Source: a virus
Virus record (IMG/VR): IMGVR_UViG_3300031857_001318
Span: 1-24,485 of that record
Reading direction: 5' to 3' (one strand)
DNA length: 24,485 nt
Shown: positions 1,842-22,084 of the stretch, in pieces
Layout of the letters: every line of letters starts with the position of its first letter
How positions within the stretch are numbered: the first letter of the stretch is position 1
Made by a program: the position numbers and the translations under genes
Notes under the pieces: generated by a model
Told to the model about the DNA's origin: nothing
The model's database searches: none
What the model saw: the letters and a program-made list of their open reading frames with translations, nothing else

Positions 1842-4800
1842 ATGGCTGAAGTAAAGAATAGCTTTGTCGGTGGTCGAATGGAAAAAGATCTCGACGAAAG
1901 ACTAATACCAGATGGTGTTTACCGAGATGCACTGAATATTGATGTCGATACGGATAGCGGTTCAAACGTTGGTTCCGCTAGAAACTCTTTAGGCAACACC
2001 CTTGTTGGTGACTACACCACTGCTCGTGGTATGAGTTCTTACGATCCATCTACTGATAACGCAACTACTATAGGGGCGGTTAAGTATGAAGCTGACAACC
2101 TCCTTTACTGGTTTGTTGCGGCTGATACGTTTGATGGAATATTCGAGTATGATGAAGTCAACGACATCGTTACTCGTGTACTAGTATGTACCAAAGCAAC
2201 TCCAACAACGGAGAGCACGCTTAGATTTGCAAGGCGCTACCTCATTACTGGCGTCAACTACATAGACGGATACCTTTACTGGACTGATAACTATAATCCA
2301 CCAAGAAGGGTAAACATAGCTCGCGCCAAGGGTTATGCCATTGATGACGCTCGTATTGCTGACGATATTGATGTTATCGTAAAGCCACCTTTGGATTCAC
2401 CAAGGATACTAGTAACGAACGATGCAGGGATTCAGTCCAATAACATAGAGGAGAAGTTTCTATACTTTTCTGTTCGATACAAGAACATTGACGATCAGTA
2501 CTCAGCAATGAGTCCGTTTTCTGCTGTTGCTTTCCACGCTGGAGACTTTGAGCTAGACCCAGTGTCAGGGTCAAACAAGGCGATGACCAATGACTTCAAC
2601 TCATGTGTAGTTTCGTTTAATACTGGAGATCAGTTTGTTAAAGAGGTTCAGCTTTTAATGCGAGACGCTAGAAGTAACAACATATATGTTGTTGAATCGT
2701 TTAACAAGGAGAAGCTCGGTTTAAGTAATAATATAACTTACCCATTCACGTTTAATAATAATAAGACATACGGAGTACTAGACTCGGCACAGCTTGGAAG
2801 GTTGTTTGACAATGTTCCTTTGAAGGCAAAATCTCAGGAGTTTGTTGGGAATAGATTAATGTATGGGAACTACGTTCAGTTTTACGACATGAACGATTGT
2901 AATGGAGAGGAGATAAATGTTGACCTAGATGTAAACTATGAATCAACAACAGATATACTTAATGGAACACCTAGACGAACATGGAGGTCTGACAGAGACT
3001 ATGAGGTAGGTATAGAGTACTTGGATGAGTACGGTCGTTCTACAACTGTATTTACTTCTGAGAATAATACAACATACATACCAGCAACCAAGTCGGATAG
3101 AGCTAATAGCCTTGTTGTGAACATCAGTAACCCTCCTCCATGCTGGGCTACAAAGTATAGGCTGTTGGTAAAGTCTAGTAAGAAAGAGTACTACAATATT
3201 TTTCCGATAAGGATATATAGCGACACTTACTATAGGTGGTTGCAAATAAATCCATCCGACAGGGATAAAGTAAAAGAAGGTGGGTATGTTATAGTAAAGT
3301 CACTAGCTAGTGGACCAACTTACTCAAATAAGAGATACAAGGTTCTTGAGATCGCTCAGAAAAATGTTGACGGATGGCTTAACGGTAATGGATATGCTGG
3401 ACTATATTTCAAGATAAAAGTTGATGACCTTAATGAGGTTAATGTATATGGGCAGTATTGGAACTGGACTGTTGGTATTGGTAGTTCTACTTATGACCCA
3501 AGTTTCGTAAATGGTATATATCCTGTAGATCCTATAGATTCAAATGATCCTTCAAACTCATATACCGAGACACCTATACACTATGGAAATGGCGACCCAA
3601 ACGGTATTGTTCTAACTAATAACACATTCATACCAGATCCAACACCTACCAACTTATACAAGGATGAAAGGATAACTATTCAGATAGATACACCTACTAC
3701 ATATAGTGTATTAAAGGTAATAATAGGCTCTTCCATACCTCAGTATCCCGTGCCTGGAGCTATAGGATTGCCGATAGTACAAGGAGCATCAATTCAGACA
3801 TCTTTCTTTAGTGCTACATTTTCTCAATCAGCATATACCCCTGGTGATAAGTGGGTATTTAATTGTAAGTATGAGGATATACCATCCATATTTAAAACGC
3901 AAGGAGTAGCAATAGTCCCAGGTGAGGGCTGGTCTCCAACATCCCCAGAAACTGATAGGGCAATAGAGGCTAATGCTAGAATAAGATTGCAAGTATTTGA
4001 AGATATAGCGAACCCATCATATGGAACATCTTCAAATGGTCCAGTTCAAGAATTTGTATCCCCTAGAAGGTTTGATAATATAGAGGAGTGGTGGTATGAA
4101 TCTGGAGCTAGAGATCAGTTTATATATCTAGACTTGCAGGGTAATAATATAAAAGGTACCCAAGTAATTTTCAGAAGAGGTGAAAATTGGTCGTTAGTAA
4201 ATGGAGTTAATACGTCGTTCCCAACAAATCAAATAGACGTAGGTATTACTCCAGAGGCAAGAAATTATCCAGTTAGAATGCTTGTGTGTTCTTCTGTACC
4301 ACCTAATCCTGGTCAAGGTCCTGGTAATACGGGATCAGCAGCTGCTGGCCTGTATAACCAACAGACAGGTCCGACTAGTAAGTTTACGTTTAACTTCGAA
4401 ATACTACAACAGGAAGAACCTAACGTAGTTGAAACAGTTCCAGACGATAACAACCTTGAAGTATACCACGAGACAACTCAGACATACGACATTACTGGGG
4501 GTGTACACATGGCTATAACGACAGACTCTCCGAATAATGTGAATCAGACTGTTAATGGTAGCTTCTATACGAATGCGGTTATTAAGCTTAACTATCCTGG
4601 AAATGAGAACTCAGACTTCAATGCATGGACGTTTGGTAATGGCTTAGAGTCAGATAGAATTCGTGACGACTGGAATTCAACAACACTAGAGTACAGCCCA
4701 AGAGTTAATTCATACGTTGAAGACTACAGCCAAAGAAGATCTGAGTCTGCGATATGCTACTCTGGGATATATGGAGAGAATACTGGTGTTGACAAGTTGA

Positions 4801-5603
4801 ATGAGTTCAATTTATCAATAGCTAACTTTAAGTATCTAGACAAGGAGTTTGGATCAATACAGAAACTACACGCAGAGGACACAAACCTTTTGGTATTACA
4901 AGAGAACAAGGTGTCTAGAGTTCTTTATGGAAAGAACCTTCTATCTGACTCTGTAGGCGGTGGGTCCGTTGTGTCTATACCAGAGGTGTTGGGCTCTCAG
5001 ATACCATACCCAGGAGAGTGGGGTATTAGTGGTAATCCAGAGTCGTTCGCTGTATGGGGAGGAATAAAGTGGTTTACTGATCAGAGAAGAGGAGCTGTAT
5101 TGCAGATGTCTGGAGATGCTGAGCCAATTCCAATTTCAGATGCAGGAATGAGAGATCACTTTAGGGATCTTATGAGGGATCAGCCTTATGAGCAAAAGCT
5201 TGGGGCATACGATCCAGACAAGAACATGTATACACTTGCGTACAACAACAATAGCGTTCAAGAATGCGAGCTAACTATCAATAAGAATCAGCTGAAGATA
5301 GGTAGCCCTATAGCGAACAACCTATACCTATTCACGATAAACACAAGCACATCATGGACCGTTACACTATTGAATACTGGTTTCGGTACATCATGGATAA
5401 CAGCACTTGGTACTAACTCTGGGTATGGTATAGGAAACCAGGATATATACTGCAGTGTAGCAGCCAACGGGACTGGAGCTATAAGAAATGTGAAGTTTGT
5501 TGTTACATACTGCGATGGTCTTGCAAAGGAGTTTACACTTATTCAAGGAAGAAGCAAGAAAGGTAAGATAACATTAATGGTAATAAATAACGATAAATTC
5601 TAA
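1842..5603 (+). CDS. Tail hub/nozzle (stabilisation-type) protein with BACON-like C-terminal domain
   Basis: This is a 1253-residue virion protein. The N-terminus (NSFVGGRMEKDLDERLIPDG, then YRDALNIDV and GSNVG, about residues 6-45) is the signature start of large tail hub proteins of short-tailed phages with beta-propeller folds. Later blocks fit the same family: YLYWTDNYNPPRRVN near 145, KWFTDQRRGAVLQMS near 1075, and DPDKNMYTLAYNN near 1125. Residues about 464-853 have more AT-rich codons than the flanks and look like an inserted domain block. Residues about 1140-1245 resemble a BACON domain: a TINTSTSWTVTL strand, a G-rich middle, an NVKFVVTYCDG strand pair and a terminal EFTLIQG strand. 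It would sit at the distal tail and may help hold the virion to glycans. Its stop overlaps the next gene's ATG by one base. Confidence 0.75.
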   Translation: MAEVKNSFVGGRMEKDLDERLIPDGVYRDALNIDVDTDSGSNVGSARNSLGNTLVGDYTTARGMSSYDPSTDNATTIGAVKYEADNLLYWFVAADTFDGIFEYDEVNDIVTRVLVCTKATPTTESTLRFARRYLITGVNYIDGYLYWTDNYNPPRRVNIARAKGYAIDDARIADDIDVIVKPPLDSPRILVTNDAGIQSNNIEEKFLYFSVRYKNIDDQYSAMSPFSAVAFHAGDFELDPVSGSNKAMTNDFNSCVVSFNTGDQFVKEVQLLMRDARSNNIYVVESFNKEKLGLSNNITYPFTFNNNKTYGVLDSAQLGRLFDNVPLKAKSQEFVGNRLMYGNYVQFYDMNDCNGEEINVDLDVNYESTTDILNGTPRRTWRSDRDYEVGIEYLDEYGRSTTVFTSENNTTYIPATKSDRANSLVVNISNPPPCWATKYRLLVKSSKKEYYNIFPIRIYSDTYYRWLQINPSDRDKVKEGGYVIVKSLASGPTYSNKRYKVLEIAQKNVDGWLNGNGYAGLYFKIKVDDLNEVNVYGQYWNWTVGIGSSTYDPSFVNGIYPVDPIDSNDPSNSYTETPIHYGNGDPNGIVLTNNTFIPDPTPTNLYKDERITIQIDTPTTYSVLKVIIGSSIPQYPVPGAIGLPIVQGASIQTSFFSATFSQSAYTPGDKWVFNCKYEDIPSIFKTQGVAIVPGEGWSPTSPETDRAIEANARIRLQVFEDIANPSYGTSSNGPVQEFVSPRRFDNIEEWWYESGARDQFIYLDLQGNNIKGTQVIFRRGENWSLVNGVNTSFPTNQIDVGITPEARNYPVRMLVCSSVPPNPGQGPGNTGSAAAGLYNQQTGPTSKFTFNFEILQQEEPNVVETVPDDNNLEVYHETTQTYDITGGVHMAITTDSPNNVNQTVNGSFYTNAVIKLNYPGNENSDFNAWTFGNGLESDRIRDDWNSTTLEYSPRVNSYVEDYSQRRSESAICYSGIYGENTGVDKLNEFNLSIANFKYLDKEFGSIQKLHAEDTNLLVLQENKVSRVLYGKNLLSDSVGGGSVVSIPEVLGSQIPYPGEWGISGNPESFAVWGGIKWFTDQRRGAVLQMSGDAEPIPISDAGMRDHFRDLMRDQPYEQKLGAYDPDKNMYTLAYNNNSVQECELTINKNQLKIGSPIANNLYLFTINTSTSWTVTLLNTGFGTSWITALGTNSGYGIGNQDIYCSVAANGTGAIRNVKFVVTYCDGLAKEFTLIQGRSKKGKITLMVINNDKF

Positions 5604-7348
5604 TGAAGGCAGAGCAGAGATATAGCTTTACTGGAAGTTCAAACTTTGACTTGAATAACATCGAGCTTTCCCCTACTGGGCTGGCACTGTTCGACACAAA
5701 GACTGGAGTCGGAGGTGTTGACTATATGCCGTATGACGGAGCAACAGTCACCATCGCTTCTGGCTTAGTTGGATTAGACCCTAACGTTAAAGATTTTGAA
5801 ACGTCATTAAATAACAAGGCGTACTATCTTGTTACAGACACTGTGTATACAGAGGCTGACAAGGACACTATTATATCTCTAGCAACTCCAGTTAGTATGT
5901 CCCTATCTGGAGGAAGGTATGTAGGTACATTCGTATTTAGTAATCCTAGCAACTATGAATACCTATACCTTATATGGGACATAAGGGATAACCTATCAAC
6001 TGGAAGTGGATCTTACAGTGGAAAGGCTGCAACAAAGTACATCAATGTTGACTTCGGAAGTAACAAGGGCAAGGCTGGAATATCGCACACTGTTGGAGGA
6101 AACCCGTGTAGATTTATGCTTGAGTACAACGGTGCCATTGTTTCCGATACTGGATATATAGGACTTAACAGCGTAGCAAACTATAACGCCTTGATAGCAA
6201 AGGGTATTGATCCAGATGACATAAAACTACAGACTCCACTTAATGGTTTAGTTAACAACGGGTCTGCCACTATTAGATTCAAGAAGCACTTAGATATGGC
6301 AGACGCTGTGCTTACAGTGTATGCACCGTTGAACTCGTCATCATGGACTGTATCTAGGGTTATGCCTTCGTTGAGTACCTTCTATATCGATATAACAAAC
6401 GGAACTCTTGCGAATGTATGTTCTCAGACACCTAACGATCAGAAGTGGCATGATGGACCTCTAACGCTTCCATCGTATGGAGATAGAATATATGATGATG
6501 CTGACGGAGACACACTGTATGACGGAGGGAATGCATACCATATTATGAATCCAACGTCGTTGGGCGCACCTCCAGTATCTGGCGGTAAGTACATAGGAAT
6601 CAGAACTGATGGAGTTGTTATATCCTATGGTGAGTGCGACTGTGCAAGCATTGCTGTTCCTACTGTAAACCAGGTTGACCTTGATTTCGTTATAGGTAGA
6701 GAAGTAGACATCATACTTAGTGCCACAAACAGCCCAACATCATGGGCGATCGATGGGGCATGCGAAACATTCGAGCTTACTGGTGGAACGAAGGGAAGTA
6801 TATTCTCTGTCACGTTTTGTGATACCACTATAAAGAACGTGTCTGTAAATGCTGGGTCTACCGTAAGGGTTAGCGCTACTGCTGCAACACTTTCGTTTGG
6901 TAGTGGTACAGCTACATCTATCAGTGTAGACGACTCTTTCTACCTTCCAAACGGACTTTCGTTGAATAGTACGACAGGAAGACTTAGCGGAACTCCAATA
7001 GAGGCATGTTCTTTCGATGTAGACCTTATAGCAACAAACTGTTTCGGAAGTAGCTCACCTACAACTGTTACAATAACTGTAGCTACTGGTATTCAGTTAA
7101 CGCCGTTCGCAATGGATGTTGAAAATGTAAGTGCATCTGGAGCTACAGCATGTTTGATAAGTCCTACATACTCAATGATGTATCATAATGGTATTGGTGA
7201 CGTACCTACACTTGGTGATACCATATATGTGGACTATAAAGGTATAGATGTATTGATGGGTGGTAGCAGGTGGTACAATGTCGATGGATCATTGGATTCA
7301 ATAAAGGTATGCGAGACTGGTAAGGTGTGCGATACCCACACATGTTAA
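5603..7348 (+). CDS. Tail appendage protein with putative Ig (He_PIG-type) domain
   Basis: This is a 581-residue protein. Residues about 405-496 form a putative-Ig/cadherin-like domain with LPNGLSLNSTTGRLSGTP near 447-465, the hallmark of that fold. Two diverged copies of another small domain frame it: one near 290-345 (YGDRIYDDADGDTLYDGG, ending in ISYGEC) and one near 533-575 (LGDTIYVDYKGIDVLMGG, ending in IKVCETG). That domain is frequent in extracellular proteins and phage fibres of Bacteroidota. Cysteines are frequent in the C-terminal part (ECDC, CETGKVC, CDTHTC), which is unusual for a cytoplasmically assembled fibre. It is coupled to the hub gene by a TAATG overlap and is the last gene before a promoter. 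A receptor-binding or decoration role is inferred from domains and position; no enzymatic motif is visible. Confidence 0.6.
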   Translation: MKAEQRYSFTGSSNFDLNNIELSPTGLALFDTKTGVGGVDYMPYDGATVTIASGLVGLDPNVKDFETSLNNKAYYLVTDTVYTEADKDTIISLATPVSMSLSGGRYVGTFVFSNPSNYEYLYLIWDIRDNLSTGSGSYSGKAATKYINVDFGSNKGKAGISHTVGGNPCRFMLEYNGAIVSDTGYIGLNSVANYNALIAKGIDPDDIKLQTPLNGLVNNGSATIRFKKHLDMADAVLTVYAPLNSSSWTVSRVMPSLSTFYIDITNGTLANVCSQTPNDQKWHDGPLTLPSYGDRIYDDADGDTLYDGGNAYHIMNPTSLGAPPVSGGKYIGIRTDGVVISYGECDCASIAVPTVNQVDLDFVIGREVDIILSATNSPTSWAIDGACETFELTGGTKGSIFSVTFCDTTIKNVSVNAGSTVRVSATAATLSFGSGTATSISVDDSFYLPNGLSLNSTTGRLSGTPIEACSFDVDLIATNCFGSSSPTTVTITVATGIQLTPFAMDVENVSASGATACLISPTYSMMYHNGIGDVPTLGDTIYVDYKGIDVLMGGSRWYNVDGSLDSIKVCETGKVCDTHTC

Positions 7349-7365: not shown

Positions 7366-8127
7366 ATGGCTATAGAGACAGTTACATTTTCAGAAAGATC
7401 ACAGGGATGGACCTCGTTCTGGTCATTTAAGCCAGAATGGATGATTGGTCTTAACGGATCATTCTATACGTGGAAGGATGGTTGCTTATACAAGCACAAT
7501 ACTAACGCTACGCGTAATGCATTCTACTATGACTGGCCTAATACTGAGTACTACACGTATGACTCAACTCTTACCACTGTATTCAACCAGGAGCCAATGT
7601 CTAACAAGATGTTTAAGACGGTATCACTTGATAGTACACAGCCTTGGTATACAACTATAACAACTGATCTATCGAGCGGAACAATTTCAGACACCTATTA
7701 CAAGGAGAAGGAAGGTGAATGGTATGCGTTTATACGTAGACCAGATGATGGTTCATATGATACGATGTCTCTATCTACGCAAGGTATCGGGTCCGTTGTT
7801 TCGTACAACTCTGGAACATATACACTGCTATTCGCATTTGATATTGGCACAAGCATAAGTACTGGAGATAAGCTGTACAAGATTAACGGAACAAGTACAC
7901 TGACCCTACTTGGGACTGTTGCCTCACACACCGCTACAACGATAACCCTTACTGCAGCAACGGCATCAGCCATAGCTCCAGGAAATGTAATTGTATATGT
8001 AAAGAACTCAATGGCAGAGTCTTTTGGTGCTCGTGGATACTACATGGAGGTGCAACTTATAAATTCATCAACAACTGAGGTAGAAATCTTTGCAATTTCA
8101 TCATCCGTTTTTAAAAGTAACCCTTAA
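7366..8127 (+). CDS. Conserved phage structural protein
   Basis: This is a 253-residue protein. The first 130 residues carry the pattern of a widespread phage virion protein: a FSERSQGWTSFWSFKPEWM start, then LNGSFYTWKDGCLYKHN, then VFNQEPMSNKMFKT, then a W-containing turn and KEKEGEWYAFIR (about 112-123). Residues about 140-215 are Ser/Thr-rich beta repeats. The C-terminus (residues about 218-250) is another beta segment. This family usually lies among tail genes in phages of marine and Bacteroidota hosts; its structural role is known only in outline. It has its own promoter box and is followed by a second one 7 bases after its stop, so it can be transcribed as a separate unit or by read-through. 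Confidence 0.65.
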   Translation: MAIETVTFSERSQGWTSFWSFKPEWMIGLNGSFYTWKDGCLYKHNTNATRNAFYYDWPNTEYYTYDSTLTTVFNQEPMSNKMFKTVSLDSTQPWYTTITTDLSSGTISDTYYKEKEGEWYAFIRRPDDGSYDTMSLSTQGIGSVVSYNSGTYTLLFAFDIGTSISTGDKLYKINGTSTLTLLGTVASHTATTITLTAATASAIAPGNVIVYVKNSMAESFGARGYYMEVQLINSSTTEVEIFAISSSVFKSNP

Positions 8128-8145: not shown

Positions 8146-8553
8146 ATGGAAGTAAGATACTTGAATGATGCCGACTACTCAGATACACTGGTCAAGTGGT
8201 GGGATTCATGGGGATGGGTGGCACCATCAAGGAAGATGCTTCCAGAAAATGGCACAGGTGGAGTGATGGTAAGCAAGGACGGTATAGATATATGTGCTGG
8301 GTTTGTTTACTTCACTAACTCCACTATGGCATGGGTTGAATACATCGTGTCAAATAAGGAGTACAGAATTTCTGACAGAGGAGAGGCTATAGAACTTCTT
8401 ATAACGACACTATCTGTTATAGCCCGCGACAAAGGTTATGAATTTGTTTATGCGTCAGTCAAGAACAAACCACTTATCCAAAAGTATGAAAGATGCGGAT
8501 TTAAGCTTGGTGATCAAGACTGTCAAGAATTAATAAAGATATGGCAGCAGTAA
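8146..8553 (+). CDS. GNAT-family acetyltransferase
   Basis: This is a 135-residue protein of about GNAT-domain length. A beta strand MEVRYLNDADY opens it. A central strand pair (about residues 48-68, DICAGFVYFTNSTMAWVEYI) leads into the acetyl-CoA loop KEYRISDRGEAIELLI at 71-86, which keeps the R-x-x-R-G-like arrangement as RISDRG. Residues 105-119, SVKNKPLIQKYERCGF, match the GNAT motif with N107, Y114 and GF at the end. The predicted reaction is acetyl transfer from acetyl-CoA to an amine; the substrate cannot be read from sequence. It opens an operon with internal virion protein genes and overlaps the next gene by 13 bases, so modification of a virion or host protein during late infection is plausible. 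Similar small acetyltransferases are known in phage structural clusters. Confidence 0.75.
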   Translation: MEVRYLNDADYSDTLVKWWDSWGWVAPSRKMLPENGTGGVMVSKDGIDICAGFVYFTNSTMAWVEYIVSNKEYRISDRGEAIELLITTLSVIARDKGYEFVYASVKNKPLIQKYERCGFKLGDQDCQELIKIWQQ

Positions 8554-10777: not shown

Positions 10778-13700
10778 ATGAACGATAAACTAGAACAACT
10801 ATATAATCTGTATAAGAAGAATGGCATTATACAGTCTACTGACTTCAACACATTTTCATCCGCAAGTGATGATCAGAGAAAGAAATTATATGATCTAGGA
10901 AGACAAAAAGGTTTGTTTAAGACCACCGACTACAACACGTTTAGTTCGGCATTTAGACCTATTAAAAAAAAAGAACAGTCGGTATCACCATCCGCACAAA
11001 ATCAAAAACCTACTTCTTCGGCTACTCAGCAAACGAAGAAGCCAAAGCCTTCGGTATCTTCATCAGTAGGAGGTAGGTTTGCTGCTGTTACTGAAGCTGT
11101 TGAGAAAAAGAAATCAACAGCTCAGAAAGATACTAAGCCACAAGTAGTTTTCCAATCTCAAGAAGGAAAGCGTAATGATATATTTACTGGATACCCAGGG
11201 GAGGAAGGAAAGAAGTATAGACTTGATAACTCAACTGGTAAGCAAGTATGGATGGAGCTCACGTCTAGTGTTGTAGATAATGCGTTTGGTCCTACATATG
11301 ATTTGACGGGTCAAACCCCTGATTATTTAAAAGTATCTACCAAGAAAAAGAACTATGAAATATACAACACGCCTATAACAGACCCAGCTAGAGTGGCTGA
11401 GCTGAACAGGCACTTCAAAAAGAACGCTTCTTCGTCTGAGATAGACCAAGTATTCACTGGATTCCCTGGAAAGGAATCAAATGAATATAGGGTTAGAGAT
11501 AATAAATGGGAGAGAAAAGAGAAGGGATCTAAATCTTGGCAGACTGTTATAAATGAAGGCTCAATACTTGCTCTAAATAAGCAGTTCAAACAGAATGTAG
11601 AACCAACAAAAGATATAGAGAAAGCTAAGATAGATCAAAAGAAAGAAATTGAGAACAAGAAAAACATGAATATCCTTCTTGCATCAATAAACTCAGATCT
11701 AGTTGGCGCAGAAGAAGAATATGTAGCTGAAGAGCTTGATAAGAAATTTCCAGGATTCAAGTTTATAGAGCAAGGACCATTCACTGATCAGCTGCTTGTT
11801 ATTGCACCTAATGATAATAGGGTTAGTATTAGTCTAGATAATTTCACTGATGGTGACGATAGAACACAGGCAACTAGACTTAGAGAGTTCATTAGAAATA
11901 ATTCAGATCAAAATCTAATACTAGCATCGAAAAAATTATCAGCAGCTGAAGAAAAAGAGAGGAGATTTGTTGAGGAATCAACAAAGACAATGTATGAAAA
12001 TGACGTACCATCTGAGTTTAAATGGGTTGATGGCAAGCTAGTTGTGTCAACGTATTTAGATAAGCAGAAGGAGACCGAACAGTATAAGAACATAGAGATA
12101 GAACAGAAGCTCGCAAGAAAGGAATATATAGACAGGAAAGAGCAACAGTTCAATGATATATATCATCGATTCAAAGGTCAAAAGGCTGATGAAAAAGAAG
12201 TGTCTTCTGCATATGCTGCAATCAAAAAGGACGACTACGAGATAAGGAGAGTCAACCAGTATATGAATGACATTAAAGGTACTAGCGAGGATGTAGCTAA
12301 GGAAAAGGCTAGTGTTGAGGATTATACAAATGATGCAGTAAATAAACTTAGATCTGGAGAAATAACAAAGGATCAATTTGAAGCTGAGTACAAGCCAGAG
12401 ATAGATAGAAGAGTTGCAGAGCTAAAGAATAAAGGAAATGCACTTGCAGATGAACTGAATAATATCCAAAACGTAAACAAGGCTATAGAGGAGTCTGTAG
12501 CAAAGAATTACATAATAGATGAGGCGACGGGATCTTTTGGTGGAGGTATGACGTCTAAATTTGTTAAGGGTCTAACTTATCTTCCTAGATTAGCTTCGCA
12601 AGGAAGTGTATCTGCAAAAGATCAAGAGGATATAGTAAGGCTTATAACTGGGGGAGGAACAACAAAAGAATACATGGAGTCTGAGGATAGATCAGATCTT
12701 GTAAAATCATTGTTTGGCCTTTCTGAATCCATGGGTGCATTAGCATCTGGATCGGCATTTGGTGGAGGTGCTGCTACATACGCAGCATTCTACGCACAAT
12801 CATACTACGAGATGAAGGATGACTTGGATCAAGTAGAAGGTATGAGTGAAACATCAAAGGTACTTATGTCAGCTGTATACGGTGGTCTTAGTTCAGTACT
12901 GGAGAAGTATGGTATGGACCTGATTACTCAAAAGTCTGCTATTGGTAAGAACTTTAAGAACAATGTTCTAAAGAAAATGTTTGCTGATCTACCTAAAGAT
13001 GCGTCAAAGGAGTACATAGATGCAGCAATGATGAATAGCATTAAGATGACGCTTGCTGAAGCTGGATTGAAGTCATTTACTGGATCACTTGGAGAAGGTG
13101 TGACTGAATCACTTCAGTCTCTAACTCAAGTAGGAATAAAAGAAGCTTACGACTTGGCTAATGGATCAGAATTCTTTAATAACAAATCTGGATGGGAGAT
13201 ATTATCAGATGTAATATATGAAGGATATCTAGGCGCACTTGGAGGAGGTGTTATGTCTACAGTAGCATCATCTCCTAAAGTCCTAAAGAATGGAGTCTTA
13301 AATGCACTTAACGGAGAACAGGCTGAATTACTTATGAATGCAGCCAATACTGAAGGTATTGATAAGGCACTTATAACGAACTTAAAGGCTAGTGTTCTCA
13401 CTGGAAAGATAACAAAGGAAGAGGCTATCAATATATCAAATTCGTTTTCTAATGTTAAATCAAAGATAAATCAAATACCATCTGATCTGTCTGTTAGTGA
13501 TAAAGCAAAGGCTCTAGATCTGATGGTTGAGAAATCAACTATAGAAGACAGAATAGCTGGAAAGGATCCTAACCTTGTGTCTAAAGAGACTGAAAGAATA
13601 AACGAAATCAATAACCAGCTAAAAACAATATCACAAAATGCCGTTCAAGAGCAAACAACAGGTGAAGTTTCTGTTCAGCCAGAAACCACAACTGGCCAAG

Positions 13701-16700
13701 AAGTGGAGGGAGGAAAACCCGAAGCAGGACCTAAAGTCGTTACCGAAGAAGAAATCACAGCAAAAGAAAAAGAACTAGATTCTGTTTGGAGTGAAAAAAA
13801 TAAGCTACAAGATAAACTTGAAGGTCAAGGTCTAACTGAAGATGAAATAAGATCAAATGAAGACTTTAGATCTCTAATTGATAGAGCTGATGTTCTATCT
13901 TCAGAGATTTTCAAGCTTAAAGACAGTATTAAAGAAGAAGTAACAATAGACAAGCCTACTATAGCAATAAACGCTACCGTAGAGCTTGACAGGGTTAAGT
14001 CTGTTGACATGGAGTCAGAGGACGGTGCCACATTCAACCTTGATGGGACCAAGTACGAGGGCGGTGGGCTTATTGTCCCTGTGGCAAGTACAAACACTAC
14101 TGTAGAGGAGATAACTCCAGAGATGATAGCAGACTTCGTTGAGGCTAACTCTGGAAAGATTGGAGACAAGAACACTGTAAAGGTTGGTATATACAAATTC
14201 CCAAACAGTAATAAGGTGTCTATTGACCTAAATGTTGTAGCTCCAGAGTCTTCAAGAGGTCAGGCTATTGAGTTCGGTAAACAAGCGGACCAGGAATCAC
14301 TTTTCGACCTTTCAACTTTTGAGAATGTAAAGACTGGAGGGACTGGAATGAATCCAATGCAGTTTACAGACGATCAGTTCAAGGAGATAGCAAAGGCACT
14401 AAATGAGGGAAGGGTTCCAAATGTATTTGGTTCTCAGCAACCTGCTGCGCAAATGGATATGGATAACACACTTGAGAGAATCAAGGAGTCATCTAGAAAG
14501 TCAGACAGAAAGGCTGTAGGTATGTATAAGGCTGTACGTACAACCCTTCAAGCTTTGCCAGGCGTTAAGATAATTGTTCACGATACCACTGATGCCTATA
14601 GAGAGGCAATCGCTAAGGCTGAAGGAAAGACCAAAGAGCAGGTGTCGTTAGAGGAGGATGTAGACGGGGTTTCATCTGGAACATTCCTTGCTAACGGAGA
14701 GATACATATTGATGCAACAACTGCGAATGCAGTTACTGTATTCCATGAGGCATTCCATTATGCACTGATGAAGAAAGGTCTTTCTGGGAAGGCAATCAGA
14801 GAGATGGTAGATGGTATTAAGAAGTCTGTTAAAAATAAGGAGCTACTTGCAAGAGTAGAGGACTTTGCTAACCAGTACAGCGAAGGCGAGAAGAGCGAGG
14901 AGTTCGCTGTAGAACTTGGCGCCTTATTAGCAGCTACAGAAAGCGAGATGCTTACACCTAACAACCTGCAGAAGTTCTTCACAATCATTAACAATCTATT
15001 CAAGAAGGTTGGTCTACCAGCCCCATTTACAGCTGCGTCAACTCGTCAAGATGCGATCGACTTCATTAACTCACTTTCTAAAGGACTTCGTGAGGGGACT
15101 GATGTTGGGATTAGTGAGGGAATAACATCAACACTAGATGTAAAAGAAAGGAAGAATAGAAAAGTAAATATTGGTGAAGACTACAAGCTTTCATTTGTAA
15201 CGAAAGAAGATCTCATAGACATTGACGCACTTGTAAAAGATATAGAGTCTAAAGGACAAAAGGTTTGGTTCTGGGTAGCTGATCAGCTAGGAAGAGGTAT
15301 GTATGATGATGCCGTTATGGGAGATACTCATTACCTTGACGCTGGACCATCATTTGCTCTTGATCCAGAGAATAGATCTAAAGGAGTTATATGGGCGTCT
15401 GGAGCTGAGAAGTCATTGCTAGATAAAAACATAAAGAACAGTGATTATATATTCATTATAAGTGGATCACCTCAAAAGTCAAAGCTATTCAATAAGAGTG
15501 TATTTGATTTGTACTCAAAAAGAATTGGGGACTTCAAATCATTTAAAAAGAAAGTACTTGAAGCTGGTGCAACCAAGTCTATCCAAGAAGTATTAAATGC
15601 ACATGACTCATGGGAGTCATTAAGAGATGACGCATCTGTAGATAATCCTAAAACTAAAACGATTGGAACTGGCAGAAAGAAGTTTTTGATAGGAATAACT
15701 GATGCATTACAGAAGCCTAATTCTAAGACTTATAAAGTTCTTGAAAGCCTTAACGCTATATTAGATATTGAATCATTAAGAGACGATTTCTATAGGGAGA
15801 ATGAATTCGATATGAATGATGTTATGATCGTTCTTAAGCCTACTGCTGTTGGCGGTAAGTCGTCTCATTCTACGTATGAAAATGATATACTTGGAGAAGT
15901 TGTCGGAGTACCAGATAAGGTTGTGAATGCGGCTGATATTATGCCAGATGATGTATACGAGCAAGTTAAGGACATGCATAGAGCAATGGCTTCACAGAAG
16001 ATAGCTCCATATGGGTCTGGTGTAAAAAATGTAAAAAGCAGAAGCAAACGAAAGTTATCGCCATCTGTAGCTGAGAAGCTTACTGAAGACGGAAACGGAA
16101 ACTACGTATTCCAGCACTGGTCTTCAGGGAAGAGGGACGTTATAAAGCCAGGAAGTGGGCAGAACTCAATCACTGGTAAGGATGAAGCTTCATCGCTTTC
16201 AGCTGTTGGTGGATTGGCACAGTTCTATACAATGAAAGACCAGTCGGAGCCTGGTACTGGTAACGTGCTACATACGGTACTTGTACCGATGGATAAGGTG
16301 TACGACGCTAAGGAGGATCCTATGAACTTCGAGCCAGAGGCTAGAAGATTATTCAATGAGGCTAGACCTGGTCAGGGATTTGACGAGGGGTATAGAGCTG
16401 CGTTCATAACCAAGGTAGCAAACCAGAATGGTTTTGATATGACTGTATATCCTTGGAGGAATACGGAGCTTCGTGCTCAAACTACAATAGAACTTACTCC
16501 AGAGAGTGTAAATGTAGAATTCAAGGATAGAAAGAAAGATGAGTATAACGTTGGAGATAAAATTAACGTATATGGAAGAGATGCTGTAGTAACATCTGTT
16601 GATGGACCAGTAATTAACTACAAAGGTGAAACATCTCAAGGATCTATCAACGTTGAAAGATCACCAAGGTCTATTAGGAAGAAAAGAAAGGCACCAAAAA

Positions 16701-19700
16701 ATGAGGCTATATCTAAAGCCAAAGAAAAGTACGATATATCTATAGACAGGGGTAACAGCGTTGATCAAGCAAGAAAGTCAGCCATGTCTGACTTAAAGAA
16801 GAACGACTGGTATGCCAACGCAAGCGATATTGAAAGAGAGGATGCTGTTCGTGATCTTAGAAAGTTTTTTGGTCTGAAAGAAAAGTCTGCTCCTTCAGTA
16901 GCTAAAGTTAGCGCTACAAAGAAGACTACAGTAACTGTAGATGAGAAGACTGCACTTAAGGATCAACTGAAGCGTGCAGCTCGTGCAGCCCGTGGAGGAG
17001 CCAAGTCGATTAAGGACGCACAGAAAGCTATCGCTACAGAGATAAAGGCGATGGTTGAGACTGGAAGAGTGTCAGTGAAACAAGCTGCATCACTTACAGA
17101 CAGACTTGCTAAGCTAAATACAGAGAACCCTATCGCTGTTGAGCGATTCTTATCATACGCTGAGCGTGTATTCGAAAGAGCTGACTACGCACAGAGACTG
17201 AGCGATGCGTTCAAGGTACGAAGAGCTATCTCTAGATTATCAAAAGGAAAGAGCAACCAAGCTGAAGTAAAGGCTATGGGTAAGGCGTTCTTGGAGATAG
17301 ATCCGTCAATGGTTGACGACATCGATGTGTACACTGAGATGGCTAATATGATCTATGACGCAATGAAGCCTAGCAAGTCAGCTGGTACTGAGGCGATCTA
17401 TAAGAATGCTGCAGTTATCGCTGACGTTAATGCGTACACTGAGGAGATGGTCGCAGCTCAAGAGGAGCAGAAGAAGCAAGACATACTTAACATGTACAAC
17501 GAGCTTGTTACTGCTGGTGTTATCTCTTCTGATATGTCACTGAAAGATATTCAGACGATAATAAGTAAGATAAACGAGAACTTAGAGATAGAGATCGACG
17601 ATACACTACTGAAAGCTATCAATAGTAAAATAGATACTGGAAGCGTTAAGGAATATAACAAGGGAACATTTGATATGTTGTCCACCCTTGTTAGAGAGAC
17701 AATGAAGACTGGAGTAGATCCGCTTACTGGAGAGAAGGTCAAATGGGACGATCGTTCTATGGCTCTTATCAAGAAGCTAATGAATATGGACCTAGACAGA
17801 CTATCTATCAAGGAGCAGTTCAGTGCTATAGAGTCTATTCAGAACTTCATGGTTAACGGTATAACGTCTGGAATAGAAGCTACGGTGAATGCTTATGAGG
17901 GTACACTTAATGCGGATACTCTTGCAAATGAAGGAGTTAAGTCTAGAGACTTAAAGGTTTACTTCAGCAAGATGTTCGGACGAATGATGTCTTATGAGTT
18001 CGCATCGCTGCCTGTACTTATGGATAGTATGTTCGGAGGTGTAAAGTCTGGTGGTCGTGTCATGGAGATGATGGGCCTTACGAAGTACGCTAACGGAATT
18101 GCAAGGGCTACGAAGACAATGACTGGAATAATAAACGAGTACGGCGAGAAGTTCTCTAAGTCGAAGCCTAACGGTGAAGCATTCAACACAGCTAAGAACA
18201 CATACGAGAGAGGTATGCTATCGTTCTTGAAGCGTACAGTTATGGGTACAGATCTAGAGATGGATGCAGAGCTTGCAAGACGTATCGGGCTACTGCGTGA
18301 CAGTATTACAGAACTAAGAAAAGGAAGCAAGGAGGATAACGCCAAGGCTGATATCTACGATGAGCTATTTAACAAGCTTGGATTAGATAGAGAGAACGTT
18401 AGTATCATCGATATCGAGGCGAGAGTTGACGCTACAAACAGACAAGCTGTAGACTGGTGGATCAGCAAATGGGCTGAGCATTATCCAGACCTATACGATG
18501 TAAGTTTGTCAGTGTTCAATACACAGCTTGGGAAGGATCTGAACTATACACCAGACAGATTCTCGAAGATAGAGCGTAGTAGAGCCAAGTCAAAAGAGGA
18601 GCAGGACCAAATGCTTGCAAAAGCTGGTGCATTCTCTGTAGGCCTTGAGTTTACTGATAAGAGCAAGTCTGGAGTATTGATGGAGTCAAACAGACCACAG
18701 AAGACACCAGGGCGCTTCGTTGATCTTGACTTCGATGTAAGTAATTCATCAGCTATGAAGTCGGCACTGATCGACATTAATACTGCTGGATCCGTTCGTC
18801 AAGTTGACGCGTTCTTGAACTCTGAGTCGTTTAGTGATATGATCCCTAACGAGAAGGATTACAAGCTGCTTATCAATAGAGTGAACGACTATATCCGACT
18901 TACGAAAAGTAAGGAGGCTATGAGTTATGACTCATTCAAGGAACTAGACAAGGCACTTAATGTGCTTGCTGGATTTGGTACAGTTAAAGCGTTGGGTGGA
19001 GTTTTACAGCCTATTAAGCAGGTTATACCAGTTATGATCAACACGCTGGTTAACGCTGGTAATATTAACATGCGTGTAGCATTTGATAAGGACTACAACG
19101 AGTGGCTGAATAATAGCGGAATGGCTATTGCGAATAGAGGGATGGAGGCGTCGTCTGCTGTTGAGTCGGCAAACAAGTACTTAGATAAGGTGCCAGATGG
19201 TAAGGTTCAGACATTACTAAAGGCAGCTGACTCGGTGAATCAGTTCTGGCTTAAGACGTTCTTATCTAACTCTGACGTATTCATTGCTCGCGCATCATTT
19301 GAGGCGTACTACAAGCAAGACCTAAAGCGCAGAGGCAAGGATACCAATATCGACTGGAGCAATCATAAGATCGACCAAGAGGCCGCGAACTATGCACAAC
19401 ACATGGTTGACCGTCAGCAGAACATCTCTGACACGGCGATGGGTGGTAAGATGATGGCGTCTAATCAGACAGGAAGAAAGATCTTAAGAAAGACATTACT
19501 TCCGTTCGCTAACTTTGTTATGAACCAGAAGAACAGGATGTATTCTGATATTAGAGCGCTACAGAATCCTTTGGCTACTAAGGAAGATAAGGCTACAGCG
19601 TTCAGATCTCTTGTTGGTCTATCTTTGGAGATGATGACATTCCAGGCTATAGCATACGGCATTAGAGAGGCGTTCTCTTACGCTGCTGCAGAATTAGTTG

Positions 19701-20521
19701 GATGGGAGCCAGAGGATGAGGAAGAAAAAAAGAAACAAGCTAAGTACGCGAAACAGAATGTTGTTTCTCAAGGAGTAAAAGACTTCGTTTCACCAGTTCC
19801 ATTGACAGATGGTGTAACTCTTCTAGCATTCAACTATCTAGCTGGCAAATTCCAGGACGTATTCTTGTCTGACGGAAAGGATGTAGCAGAGGCTATCAAG
19901 GAGAAAAATAAATCTCTAGTCGATAATGGTAACGAGCCAATGACAGCTGATGAGGTGGCTGAATTTACTGACAAATACAACGACGAGCATAAGTGGGAAT
20001 TCAAGGATAAACAAGAGGTAGTTCCTTTGTTCGATCTTGGTACACCTAGTATTGTCCTTAAGAAGACTTACGATCTTTATACAATGCTTGAGACAGCTAG
20101 AACTGGTGAGTTCGAGAAGGATTACCAAGGACGTAAGACTAAGATGTACTTGACTAAGGAAGATAAAGAGATCTTGAAAACTATGGTAGCTCTAGAGTCT
20201 GCTTACTTAGTTGGAGCAGCTCCAGTTGAGGTAGGTCAGTTAACCAATAAGGTTGAGTCTTTCGTTAAAAAGAAAGGAATGACTGAAACTCAGAAGGAGA
20301 AGTACGATGCTGCTAAAGAGAAGTTTGGGAAGGTTGAGCCTTGGATGATGGAGATCGTTAAGTCTAAAAAGAAAGAAGATGGAGCAATCCAGGAGATAGA
20401 ATGGGTTAAATCATTCGGAGATCTTAACGAGAAGCAAGGAAGTAAGTATGTAGAGATCTTCAAAAAGAGAGAAGGACAGGTAACATACGATGATATGATG
20501 AGAATATCTAAGATGAAGTAA
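10778..20521 (+). CDS. Giant polyvalent internal virion protein with zincin metallopeptidase site
   Basis: This is a 3247-residue protein. Two short tandem repeats open it (LYNLYKKNGI...TDFNTFSSA, about 8-29; LYDLGRQKGL...TDYNTFSSA, about 37-58). Two units of about 90 residues follow, starting FTGYPG at 136 and FTGFPG at 226, each closing with an LN+xFK+N helix. Charged coiled-coil-like helices occupy 390-600, and hydrophobic Gly/Ala segments lie near 640-690 and 810-835. A zincin HEAFH is at 1323-1327, with EEF and E1379 downstream as candidate third ligand. Near 1777-1890 a FQHWSSGKRDVIKPG...QFYT pattern recalls ADP-ribosyltransferase-like folds of phage polyvalent proteins, without clear catalytic residues. 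The C-terminal half (about 2050-3247) is long helical bundles with a hydrophobic stretch near 2945-2980. It is probably packaged, ejected with the DNA and active in the host. Codon use changes in blocks along the gene. Confidence 0.65.
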   Translation: MNDKLEQLYNLYKKNGIIQSTDFNTFSSASDDQRKKLYDLGRQKGLFKTTDYNTFSSAFRPIKKKEQSVSPSAQNQKPTSSATQQTKKPKPSVSSSVGGRFAAVTEAVEKKKSTAQKDTKPQVVFQSQEGKRNDIFTGYPGEEGKKYRLDNSTGKQVWMELTSSVVDNAFGPTYDLTGQTPDYLKVSTKKKNYEIYNTPITDPARVAELNRHFKKNASSSEIDQVFTGFPGKESNEYRVRDNKWERKEKGSKSWQTVINEGSILALNKQFKQNVEPTKDIEKAKIDQKKEIENKKNMNILLASINSDLVGAEEEYVAEELDKKFPGFKFIEQGPFTDQLLVIAPNDNRVSISLDNFTDGDDRTQATRLREFIRNNSDQNLILASKKLSAAEEKERRFVEESTKTMYENDVPSEFKWVDGKLVVSTYLDKQKETEQYKNIEIEQKLARKEYIDRKEQQFNDIYHRFKGQKADEKEVSSAYAAIKKDDYEIRRVNQYMNDIKGTSEDVAKEKASVEDYTNDAVNKLRSGEITKDQFEAEYKPEIDRRVAELKNKGNALADELNNIQNVNKAIEESVAKNYIIDEATGSFGGGMTSKFVKGLTYLPRLASQGSVSAKDQEDIVRLITGGGTTKEYMESEDRSDLVKSLFGLSESMGALASGSAFGGGAATYAAFYAQSYYEMKDDLDQVEGMSETSKVLMSAVYGGLSSVLEKYGMDLITQKSAIGKNFKNNVLKKMFADLPKDASKEYIDAAMMNSIKMTLAEAGLKSFTGSLGEGVTESLQSLTQVGIKEAYDLANGSEFFNNKSGWEILSDVIYEGYLGALGGGVMSTVASSPKVLKNGVLNALNGEQAELLMNAANTEGIDKALITNLKASVLTGKITKEEAINISNSFSNVKSKINQIPSDLSVSDKAKALDLMVEKSTIEDRIAGKDPNLVSKETERINEINNQLKTISQNAVQEQTTGEVSVQPETTTGQEVEGGKPEAGPKVVTEEEITAKEKELDSVWSEKNKLQDKLEGQGLTEDEIRSNEDFRSLIDRADVLSSEIFKLKDSIKEEVTIDKPTIAINATVELDRVKSVDMESEDGATFNLDGTKYEGGGLIVPVASTNTTVEEITPEMIADFVEANSGKIGDKNTVKVGIYKFPNSNKVSIDLNVVAPESSRGQAIEFGKQADQESLFDLSTFENVKTGGTGMNPMQFTDDQFKEIAKALNEGRVPNVFGSQQPAAQMDMDNTLERIKESSRKSDRKAVGMYKAVRTTLQALPGVKIIVHDTTDAYREAIAKAEGKTKEQVSLEEDVDGVSSGTFLANGEIHIDATTANAVTVFHEAFHYALMKKGLSGKAIREMVDGIKKSVKNKELLARVEDFANQYSEGEKSEEFAVELGALLAATESEMLTPNNLQKFFTIINNLFKKVGLPAPFTAASTRQDAIDFINSLSKGLREGTDVGISEGITSTLDVKERKNRKVNIGEDYKLSFVTKEDLIDIDALVKDIESKGQKVWFWVADQLGRGMYDDAVMGDTHYLDAGPSFALDPENRSKGVIWASGAEKSLLDKNIKNSDYIFIISGSPQKSKLFNKSVFDLYSKRIGDFKSFKKKVLEAGATKSIQEVLNAHDSWESLRDDASVDNPKTKTIGTGRKKFLIGITDALQKPNSKTYKVLESLNAILDIESLRDDFYRENEFDMNDVMIVLKPTAVGGKSSHSTYENDILGEVVGVPDKVVNAADIMPDDVYEQVKDMHRAMASQKIAPYGSGVKNVKSRSKRKLSPSVAEKLTEDGNGNYVFQHWSSGKRDVIKPGSGQNSITGKDEASSLSAVGGLAQFYTMKDQSEPGTGNVLHTVLVPMDKVYDAKEDPMNFEPEARRLFNEARPGQGFDEGYRAAFITKVANQNGFDMTVYPWRNTELRAQTTIELTPESVNVEFKDRKKDEYNVGDKINVYGRDAVVTSVDGPVINYKGETSQGSINVERSPRSIRKKRKAPKNEAISKAKEKYDISIDRGNSVDQARKSAMSDLKKNDWYANASDIEREDAVRDLRKFFGLKEKSAPSVAKVSATKKTTVTVDEKTALKDQLKRAARAARGGAKSIKDAQKAIATEIKAMVETGRVSVKQAASLTDRLAKLNTENPIAVERFLSYAERVFERADYAQRLSDAFKVRRAISRLSKGKSNQAEVKAMGKAFLEIDPSMVDDIDVYTEMANMIYDAMKPSKSAGTEAIYKNAAVIADVNAYTEEMVAAQEEQKKQDILNMYNELVTAGVISSDMSLKDIQTIISKINENLEIEIDDTLLKAINSKIDTGSVKEYNKGTFDMLSTLVRETMKTGVDPLTGEKVKWDDRSMALIKKLMNMDLDRLSIKEQFSAIESIQNFMVNGITSGIEATVNAYEGTLNADTLANEGVKSRDLKVYFSKMFGRMMSYEFASLPVLMDSMFGGVKSGGRVMEMMGLTKYANGIARATKTMTGIINEYGEKFSKSKPNGEAFNTAKNTYERGMLSFLKRTVMGTDLEMDAELARRIGLLRDSITELRKGSKEDNAKADIYDELFNKLGLDRENVSIIDIEARVDATNRQAVDWWISKWAEHYPDLYDVSLSVFNTQLGKDLNYTPDRFSKIERSRAKSKEEQDQMLAKAGAFSVGLEFTDKSKSGVLMESNRPQKTPGRFVDLDFDVSNSSAMKSALIDINTAGSVRQVDAFLNSESFSDMIPNEKDYKLLINRVNDYIRLTKSKEAMSYDSFKELDKALNVLAGFGTVKALGGVLQPIKQVIPVMINTLVNAGNINMRVAFDKDYNEWLNNSGMAIANRGMEASSAVESANKYLDKVPDGKVQTLLKAADSVNQFWLKTFLSNSDVFIARASFEAYYKQDLKRRGKDTNIDWSNHKIDQEAANYAQHMVDRQQNISDTAMGGKMMASNQTGRKILRKTLLPFANFVMNQKNRMYSDIRALQNPLATKEDKATAFRSLVGLSLEMMTFQAIAYGIREAFSYAAAELVGWEPEDEEEKKKQAKYAKQNVVSQGVKDFVSPVPLTDGVTLLAFNYLAGKFQDVFLSDGKDVAEAIKEKNKSLVDNGNEPMTADEVAEFTDKYNDEHKWEFKDKQEVVPLFDLGTPSIVLKKTYDLYTMLETARTGEFEKDYQGRKTKMYLTKEDKEILKTMVALESAYLVGAAPVEVGQLTNKVESFVKKKGMTETQKEKYDAAKEKFGKVEPWMMEIVKSKKKEDGAIQEIEWVKSFGDLNEKQGSKYVEIFKKREGQVTYDDMMRISKMK

Positions 20522-21379: not shown

Positions 21380-22084
21380 CTATGCAAATATAAATTTAGT
21401 TTTGTTTTTTATATATCCAACTAGCATAGCTCTCAAATTATTTTTGTTGATATTATTGTATATAGAGGCATCATTGACATTGTAATAAAATATGCCATTT
21501 TCAGTGTCAAGTACTATTCTAGACCTTGTGTTTTTAAATCCAGAAAACTTATCAATAAGAGCTAATTTTAACATCTGCTTTGTTTCATCAGTCATTGGTC
21601 TTCCATGCTTATGTTTGCCAGATTTAATCTTTGATTCCAATATTTTAGCTTTCCATTCTTCAGTGAATACCCTGCCTTTGAATCTGTTTGACAGTTTCTG
21701 CCTTGTCTCTTCACTTTTAGTTGTACCATACATTGGATTTTTAACACCAAGCTTTCCTTCAGAAAGTTTTTTAGAAGTATATTCAGAAACAACCCTAGGC
21801 TTACCATAAGATTCAGCTAACATAGAATTTAATCCGTTTGGCGCCAATGAATTATAATGATCTTGCCAGTGCCTCTCTCTTACATTCATTTCTTCAAATT
21901 CACATTCCTCTATTATTTCAAATATATGATTATCAACACCATGCTTTTTTAGCGAGTTAATTAATACAGTCTGAGTTTTGCATTGAAGATTTTTGTATTG
22001 CTTGAATCTTTTATCTACATTCCTGCTCTGACCTATATATATCTTGCCAGATGGTGACTTTATCATATATATTACACACTTCAT
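21380..22084 (-). CDS. GIY-YIG homing-type endonuclease with NUMOD repeats
   Basis: This is a 234-residue protein. The GIY-YIG nuclease domain occupies about residues 1-90: VIYMIKSPSGKIYIGQS (4-20) holds the paired tyrosine/glycine motif, R26 in NVDKRF is the conserved catalytic arginine position, and E70 in RERHWQDHY is the metal-binding glutamate position. N86 in NGLN closes the domain. NUMOD3-type DNA-binding segments follow (GVKNPMYGTTKSEETRQKLS near 113-132 and GRPMTDETKQML near 161-172). The C-terminal helix-turn-helix region (about 190-234) resembles NUMOD1. Such free-standing nucleases cut a cognate site and spread their own gene. It is wedged 4 bases after the metallophosphoesterase stop and is richer in A+T than its neighbours, consistent with a recent arrival. 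Confidence 0.9.
   Translation of the reverse strand: MKCVIYMIKSPSGKIYIGQSRNVDKRFKQYKNLQCKTQTVLINSLKKHGVDNHIFEIIEECEFEEMNVRERHWQDHYNSLAPNGLNSMLAESYGKPRVVSEYTSKKLSEGKLGVKNPMYGTTKSEETRQKLSNRFKGRVFTEEWKAKILESKIKSGKHKHGRPMTDETKQMLKLALIDKFSGFKNTRSRIVLDTENGIFYYNVNDASIYNNINKNNLRAMLVGYIKNKTKFIFA
21385..21392 (-). promoter_or_regulatory. Possible Bacteroidota-type -7 box (TATATTTG)
   Basis: Read on the minus strand, TATATTTG fits TAnnTTTG. It lies 35 bases before the ATG of the two-helix membrane protein and overlaps the last codons of the endonuclease gene. No -33 TTTG is obvious. Because it overlaps AT-rich coding sequence, chance is a real alternative. Confidence 0.45.

Follow-up and report, generated by a model that had tools for sequence, protein, structure and literature searches.

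Does a BACON domain close the large tail hub protein encoded in this virus record and, if so, what could it be doing at that place? The window, which is the whole stretch of 24,485 bases of the record, holds structural genes of a crAss-like phage. A sequence-only reading had proposed that the 1253-residue hub ends in a BACON-like domain and that this would bring a mucin- or glycan-binding module to the tail tip. In crAss-like phages, mucin or glycan binding is often ascribed to BACON domains, according to PMC9853417 largely without a binding test. Two arrangements are described in these phages: tandem BACON arrays close to tail genes, and single domains that are not near tail proteins (PMC6949934).

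A muzzle protein encoded in separate pieces

The hub of that reading is the muzzle protein, the gated end piece of the crAss-like phage tail. Residues 54-1253 were modeled with AF2 (mean pLDDT 75), and the model has the crAss001 muzzle gp44 (7qol_P/7qok_A) as its best PDB match by Foldseek (E 8.3e-18), with Z 15.4 and rmsd 5.0-5.4 over 439-478 aligned residues. The match pairs residues 1-951 of the model (hub 54 to about 1004) with gp44 56-1084, and within the propeller segment, residues 920-1020 of the model (hub 973-1073) have pLDDT below 50. Searches of the PDB with the profiles A1 and A2 missed gp44, which was recovered by fold comparison and by hhalign (probability 91.9% and 95.6%). PF25731 is above cut-off in three relatives (L010, L012 and L014); Pfam did not find it in the window's own chain 1, the whole 1253-aa protein has no Pfam match at E ≤ 1, and phmmer searches of hub and tail against the PDB returned only chance-level matches. 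The two genes ahead of the hub ORF match other virion-protein families. The crAss001 muzzle is described as a hexameric gated assembly at the tail end, and the name "tail hub" is given there to other proteins (PMC10172136). Muzzles comprise a ring-joining domain, a propeller, two Ig domains and a crass domain, and the fold match of the window's hub was read over the chain as a whole. The relatives found in the phage collection have Flavobacterium, Cellulophaga, Tenacibaculum and Maribacter as hosts, besides one environmental genome from Manatee Spring.

Table 1. Features of the split muzzle locus in the window.
Feature	Position	Strand	Basis and remarks
Muzzle (hub) chain 1	1842..5603	+	1253 aa; phrog_14478, E 5.6e-195; AF2 fold match to the crAss001 muzzle
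Last propeller ("pre") segment	4791..5237	+	Residues 984-1132; HMM coordinates; ends YDPDKNMYTL; hhalign to gp44 up to about 1200
Muzzle-fold break point, leading into the insert	5238..5270	+	Holds Cys1142 (codon 5265-5267)
BACON domain (profile and predicted fold)	5271..5546	+	Hub residues 1144-1235; AF2 strands, Foldseek 3zmr, A5 profile
Linker-like tail GRSKKGKITLMVINNDKF	5547..5600	+	Last 18 residues; pLDDT 59-78 per block
TAATG stop/start overlap, chain 1 and next gene	5601..5605	+	Sequence
581-aa insert protein	5603..7348	+	Shared module at seed residues 20-135; He_PIG Ig-like 409-494, E 1.4e-11
Muzzle chain 2, crAss_MUZ_C	7366..8127	+	253 aa; PF25729, E 5.8e-13

The hub ORF covers one part of the muzzle fold. 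The C-terminal piece, crAss_MUZ_C, is a separate ORF that aligns with gp44 from residue 1199 (hhalign) and with residues 1079-1323 of the Calle/phi38:1 muzzle (blastp). Where the propeller segment of the window's hub ends and MUZ_C starts, gp44 reads unbroken DVYFTYK-DHCLCYSE. The window shares with gp44 (7QOL, 7QOK; PF25731/PF25729) the fold and the C-terminal piece, but gp44 is one chain, in which the strands around about residue 1198 are contiguous and no BACON stands there. In the window, the two halves are separated by BACON and then by the 581-aa protein. The domain is at the end of the hub ORF, as had been proposed, but the muzzle fold extends past that ORF, and BACON starts an insert at the split.

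In crAss001 gp44, phi38:1, Calle, Gundel and elemo, MUZ_C belongs to the same chain as the rest of the muzzle, and in four loci (L003, L004, L005 and L008) the muzzle continues directly into it, with 4-19 residues between the two HMM matches. Cellulophaga phage phi38:1 gp097, like the Calle_1 structural protein, shows 33% identity to the window over residues 1-1136 and 32% over MUZ_C, but this muzzle is unsplit, having 4 residues between the HMM matches and no insert. On the other hand, Cellulophaga phage phi46:3 (gp111 and gp112) has its muzzle split at the same place and a later insert module resembling the 581-aa protein, but another domain occupies the position of BACON. In L012, the counterparts of chain 1 with BACON and of the 581-aa protein form one ORF of 1937 aa, which makes the TAATG border of the window a second break. 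By eye, the tail GRSKKGKITLMVINNDKF corresponds to the linker that joins the domains in the fused relatives L012, L006 and L007.

The break presumably lies in one beta-hairpin of a propeller blade, probably the B-C turn. Following the usual rule for propellers, such a turn would lie on the side of the Ig domains, and this would be the insert-bearing face. An intron or a programmed frameshift was considered as the cause of the split, but the window has no Rfam match at gathering score, the gap codes for a protein that has a hub-fused relative in L012, and the reading frame of the next gene relative to chain 1 varies among loci.

Other arrangements were seen in single loci. The muzzle of Maribacter phage Panino (L002:7989-11902) is annotated as two ORFs of 946 and 320 aa; its break falls within the propeller segment, at a different place from the split of the window. 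In L095 (8861-10738), MUZ_C is fused behind a 377-residue repeat region (GSID..F..G.GF type, recognized by eye), a further type of insert at this break. Two unsplit muzzle genes of 1466 and 1486 aa (L110 and L112) lie about 65 kb apart in IMGVR_UViG_3300046002_004363 (99,577 bases), possibly a chimeric assembly or two phages.

The domain that ends chain 1

The 1253-residue ORF contains the motifs INTSTSWTVTL and EFTLIQG, on which the BACON proposal had been built, and a Gly-rich GYGIGN, and the BACON core is slightly narrower than the 5255-5590 first delimited. In the AF2 model of the isolated tail, nine strand elements are predicted at residues 1144-1235 (pLDDT 83.3, pTM 0.71), making an Ig-like sandwich as anticipated with eight strands, and they recur at the same residues in the model of the full hub. 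The BACON domain of Bacteroides ovatus BoGH5A (3ZMR) comes first in Foldseek with the tail model (E 8.4e-6, rmsd 2.1 over 98 columns) and is also top by VIA-align (Z 11.6, but with rmsd 10.5 over 101). Compared with the domain within the hub model it gives Z 10.9 and rmsd 2.0 for 88 aligned residues. Sequence identity to 3ZMR is 15-18%, and the BoGH5A domain differs in being the N-terminal domain of a xyloglucanase and in having no Cys aligned to Cys1224 of the window.

Profile comparisons were based on A5, an alignment of 32 homologous hub tails, window included. Its best PDB match is again BoGH5A (3zmr_A 7-92, E 1.7e-9), and it also matches the C-terminus of the sulfatase 9s8x (E 2.2e-8). 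At E ≤ 0.1, PF13004 (BACON) is found in 16 of the 32 members (best 5.5e-8) and PF19190 (BACON_2) in 10 (best 2.1e-9). The expected family match is obtained with homologous tails, but the tail of the window alone reaches 15.6 bits against PF13004 (E 0.016), below the Pfam cut-off of 25 bits. PF19190 has no match in the window's own record, and no BACON match at E ≤ 0.01 is listed for five long BACON-type tails in alignment A6. With the tail alone as query, we were not able to find relatives, and only three weak records (E 2 to 5) came out of a tblastn search of phages at E ≤ 10. The tail has no match in NCBIfam, and in PHROGs only 1 of the 32 tails matched, to one unnamed family.

The signal of the tail is more than chance, since shuffled controls score far below it. 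A profile of the other 31 A5 tails gives 106 bits to the tail of the window and at most 18.8 bits to shuffles of the same letters (among the 1992 of 2000 reported). With the 18 members less than 35% identical, the tail still scores 81 bits, and the shuffles reach at most 10.5 (1998 of 2000 reported). Residues F1164, W1172, W1185, G1196, N1209, R1215, C1224 and Q1235 are invariant or nearly so in A5. Every one of the 43 hub ORFs matching the BACON HMM (duplicates counted) has exactly one match, and no tandem BACON was found in them.

By sequence profile and predicted fold, hub residues 1144-1235 are a BACON domain, and the models predict that it folds separately; a fold integral to the propeller, together with a lack of profile matches, had been named as refuting the proposal. 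A BACON-containing protein near tail genes is also described for p-crAssphage, gp64, but that one is a separate protein with eight tandem repeats (PMC6949934), set apart from the window here by its description. In the review PMC10136315, muzzle protein and BACON are treated separately. BACON in crAss-like phages is already known, and a single BACON on a split muzzle appears to be new: we found no description of one on the muzzle, at a chain-separating break, in the literature searched, which consisted of papers readable without subscription.

Distribution, position and divergence of the insert

From the 519 relatives confirmed in a scan with the separate MUZ_C, 80 were examined; these loci were picked by likeness to the split MUZ_C of the window, so that the split is over-represented. 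Together with the earlier loci, and after removing nine duplicates or near-duplicates, they make a classified set of 90 rows: 80 split, 5 unsplit and 5 without one piece. MUZ_C is a separate ORF in 80 of the 85 rows with both pieces (window counted), a count from a biased sample, and a five-sequence profile finds BACON in 28 of the 80 split rows. A scan from the unsplit side gave 29 loci, being 15 unsplit, 13 split and 1 broken elsewhere.

In a tree of 88 muzzles, obtained by a quick search and with several rows on long branches, the 31 BACON rows fall within one group of 32 (SH-aLRT 97). The sole row of this group without BACON, L031, keeps the split. In this sample BACON was inherited within one group, with one loss, and its absence from L031 while the split stays indicates an added module and not a core part of the muzzle. 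In L031 (9691-9740), chain 1 stops at the hairpin (YVLSFSNQSF, then stop), with the MUZ_C ORF immediately downstream; BACON is present in the near relatives L030, L032 and L051. In another 46 split rows, which together form one side of a branch, the site of BACON is taken by a different beta domain, here called type B and defined by a profile of our own. It shows no sequence relation to BACON (hhalign probability 0.4%) and no Pfam name at E ≤ 0.01. Phage phi46:3 (L006) is placed under "other", on a long branch. The 9 unsplit rows occupy three places of the tree, which amounts to 3 changes, although the starred branches force only 1, and the elemo-like unsplit rows adjoin type-B rows (support 89).

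The position of BACON is highly conserved: in 31 of 31 BACON rows the A5 profile match begins 1-3 residues past the end of the propeller segment. What follows is more variable. After type B, a shared next module lies inside the muzzle ORF in 46 of 46 rows. After BACON it was found in 18 of 31, opening the next ORF in 13 (the window, L010, L014, L022, L024, L027, L028, L041, L045, L059, L073, L077 and L099) and continuing the muzzle ORF in 5 (L012, L053, L056, L079 and L087); the remaining 13 of the 31 rows gave no match to it. The stop/start arrangement after BACON varies among loci, and in five of them (L030, L035, L042, L049 and L051) the chain stops right after the domain. The 13 rows without the next module and the five chain ends at BACON imply that a pure spacer role does not cover all cases. 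The MUZ_C chains of L030 (9716-10744) and of matching ORFs in L031, L032, L035, L036, L042, L049 and L051 have an extra N-terminal region that starts MCDCIK and measures 83-188 residues; in L031, the one member scanned, Pfam names MUZ_C alone.

The divergence of BACON outpaces that of the propeller parts and is close to that of the crass region. In 15 non-overlapping pairs, BACON has a lower identity than the N-terminal part (14 pairs), the pre segment (13 pairs), MUZ_C (12 pairs) and the crass region (9 pairs); its median identity is 53%, against 79, 89, 73 and 57%, respectively. Type B behaves likewise, with a lower identity than the N-terminal part in 20 of 22 pairs and than the crass region in 15 of 22. 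Each end of the domain has a cysteine nearby in 30 of 31 BACON tails (L037, the exception, is truncated), as is the case in 45 of 46 type-B tails. Cys1142 is invariant across the 32 A5 rows, and Cys is otherwise scarce in the BACON chains, with 2-9 in the preceding 1,066-1,252 residues. Such conservation suggests that a Cys1142-Cys1224 disulfide probably closes the BACON domain.

Possible adaptor or binder at the presumed hairpin

We suggest that, once the muzzle gene was broken at the presumed propeller hairpin, the fold came to be built from at least two chains. The first strand of chain 2 (crAss_MUZ_C) would pair with the last strand of chain 1 and complete the propeller in trans, and the break would be left as a surface site holding the insert. 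Its first module, a single BACON attached to chain 1 and probably stapled by Cys1142-Cys1224, would then most likely be a rigid Ig-like adaptor outside the muzzle. It would connect the propeller edge left open by the break with the adhesin-type modules of the 581-aa protein, and these would reach toward the host surface. An exposed, disulfide-stapled adaptor fits three sets of data together: a domain that is single, fixed by descent and first after the break; its fast divergence; and the Cys at its ends. We consider it rather probable that the split muzzle carries BACON as an exposed adaptor for host-contact modules, the complex of chains being itself a proposal. The tail-tip placement of the sequence-only reading would hold roughly, but by homology the domain hangs from the propeller and not from the distal crass domain, which gives no support for the extreme tip.

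Fast divergence fits a receptor-binding domain as well, and the strongest alternative is that BACON is itself the receptor- or glycan-binding module, its copies attaching to polysaccharide on the host, on particles or in mucus and thereby helping to trigger the opening of the gate. A direct binder fits the divergence better than an adaptor does, placing BACON among the faster-diverging muzzle parts, and it explains the five chains in which BACON is the last module. Carbohydrate binding is implied by the family's name, but published results on BACON domains are divided. Gut phage BACON-bearing proteins displayed on phage K1F are reported to have raised epithelial adherence (PMC13370021). However, the BACON of BoGH5A reportedly bound no substrate tried (PMC9853417, PMC12853789, PMC6949934), and the last of these papers describes a linker. 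A domain that determines host range might be expected to swap, while this one was inherited in one group with one loss, and no exchange between BACON and type B was found across the 88-muzzle tree, though the adhesin idea would expect it. The mucin- or glycan-binding claim lost ground on the same BoGH5A result, and the hosts of the cultured relatives are flavobacterial and not gut bacteria, which gives no cause to think of mucin. We regard direct binding as a possible but doubtful explanation.

It is very improbable that the muzzle was simply broken by mutation or assembly error, with the BACON tail as a by-product of a longer ORF. L037 does resemble a frameshifted copy of L036, and the five loci in which a single ORF holds both BACON and the module after it indicate that the break after BACON is not universal; against this, the same break recurs in 13 of 31 BACON rows with varied stop/start arrangements, and the break before MUZ_C spans both large tree groups and the cultured phi46:3. 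A generic Ig-like decoration that merely resembles BACON, with no special relation to it, is the least probable explanation. In its favor, the tail model has Z 8-10 with a large number of Ig-like and chaperone folds, and the window alone is under the Pfam cut-off; against it, 3zmr is first in Foldseek, VIA and sequence-profile searches and half of the tails match BACON itself.

The split suggests that a gate-bearing tail end piece may be built from separately encoded chains. Only tentatively would we extend this to a lineage with a multi-chain muzzle, in which the propeller would be completed in trans and a disulfide-stapled adaptor in the opened hairpin, BACON or type B according to the group, would couple host-contact modules directly to the gate. 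The locus sets BACON at a defined place on a protein with a relative of solved structure, which makes the question of spacer or binder directly testable, as well as the role of the muzzle in host contact. Natural comparisons are the BACON-less L031, the unsplit muzzles of the cultured phi38:1, Calle and elemo, and the split one of the cultured phi46:3.

Some observations concern the neighboring genes. In the protein at 5603-7348, residues 111-316 resemble a hypothetical protein of Flavobacterium psychrophilum phages (about 25% identity, E 2e-6), a hint, from sequence likeness, of a module common to other tailed phages. Its counterpart in L010 (4198-7074) and L014 (4189-7074) has about 960 aa with long poly-Thr linkers, and poly-Thr-like runs also occur in the tails of L054, L055 and L057; the ORF beside it in L010 received no Pfam name. 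Just after MUZ_C, a 135-aa gene (8146-8553) shows weak likeness to GNAT acetyltransferases (PF00583, E 0.12) and matches phrog_17252 (E 1.3e-41), and ORFs of 135 aa, likened by length and position, are found at the same place in L010, L011, L012 and L014. A 3247-aa ORF (10778-20521) adjoins the tail genes, with all its Pfam matches below cut-off and an HExxH-like FHEAFHYAL seen by eye. On the minus strand, 21380-22084 encodes a GIY-YIG endonuclease with a NUMOD3 motif, likely a homing endonuclease.
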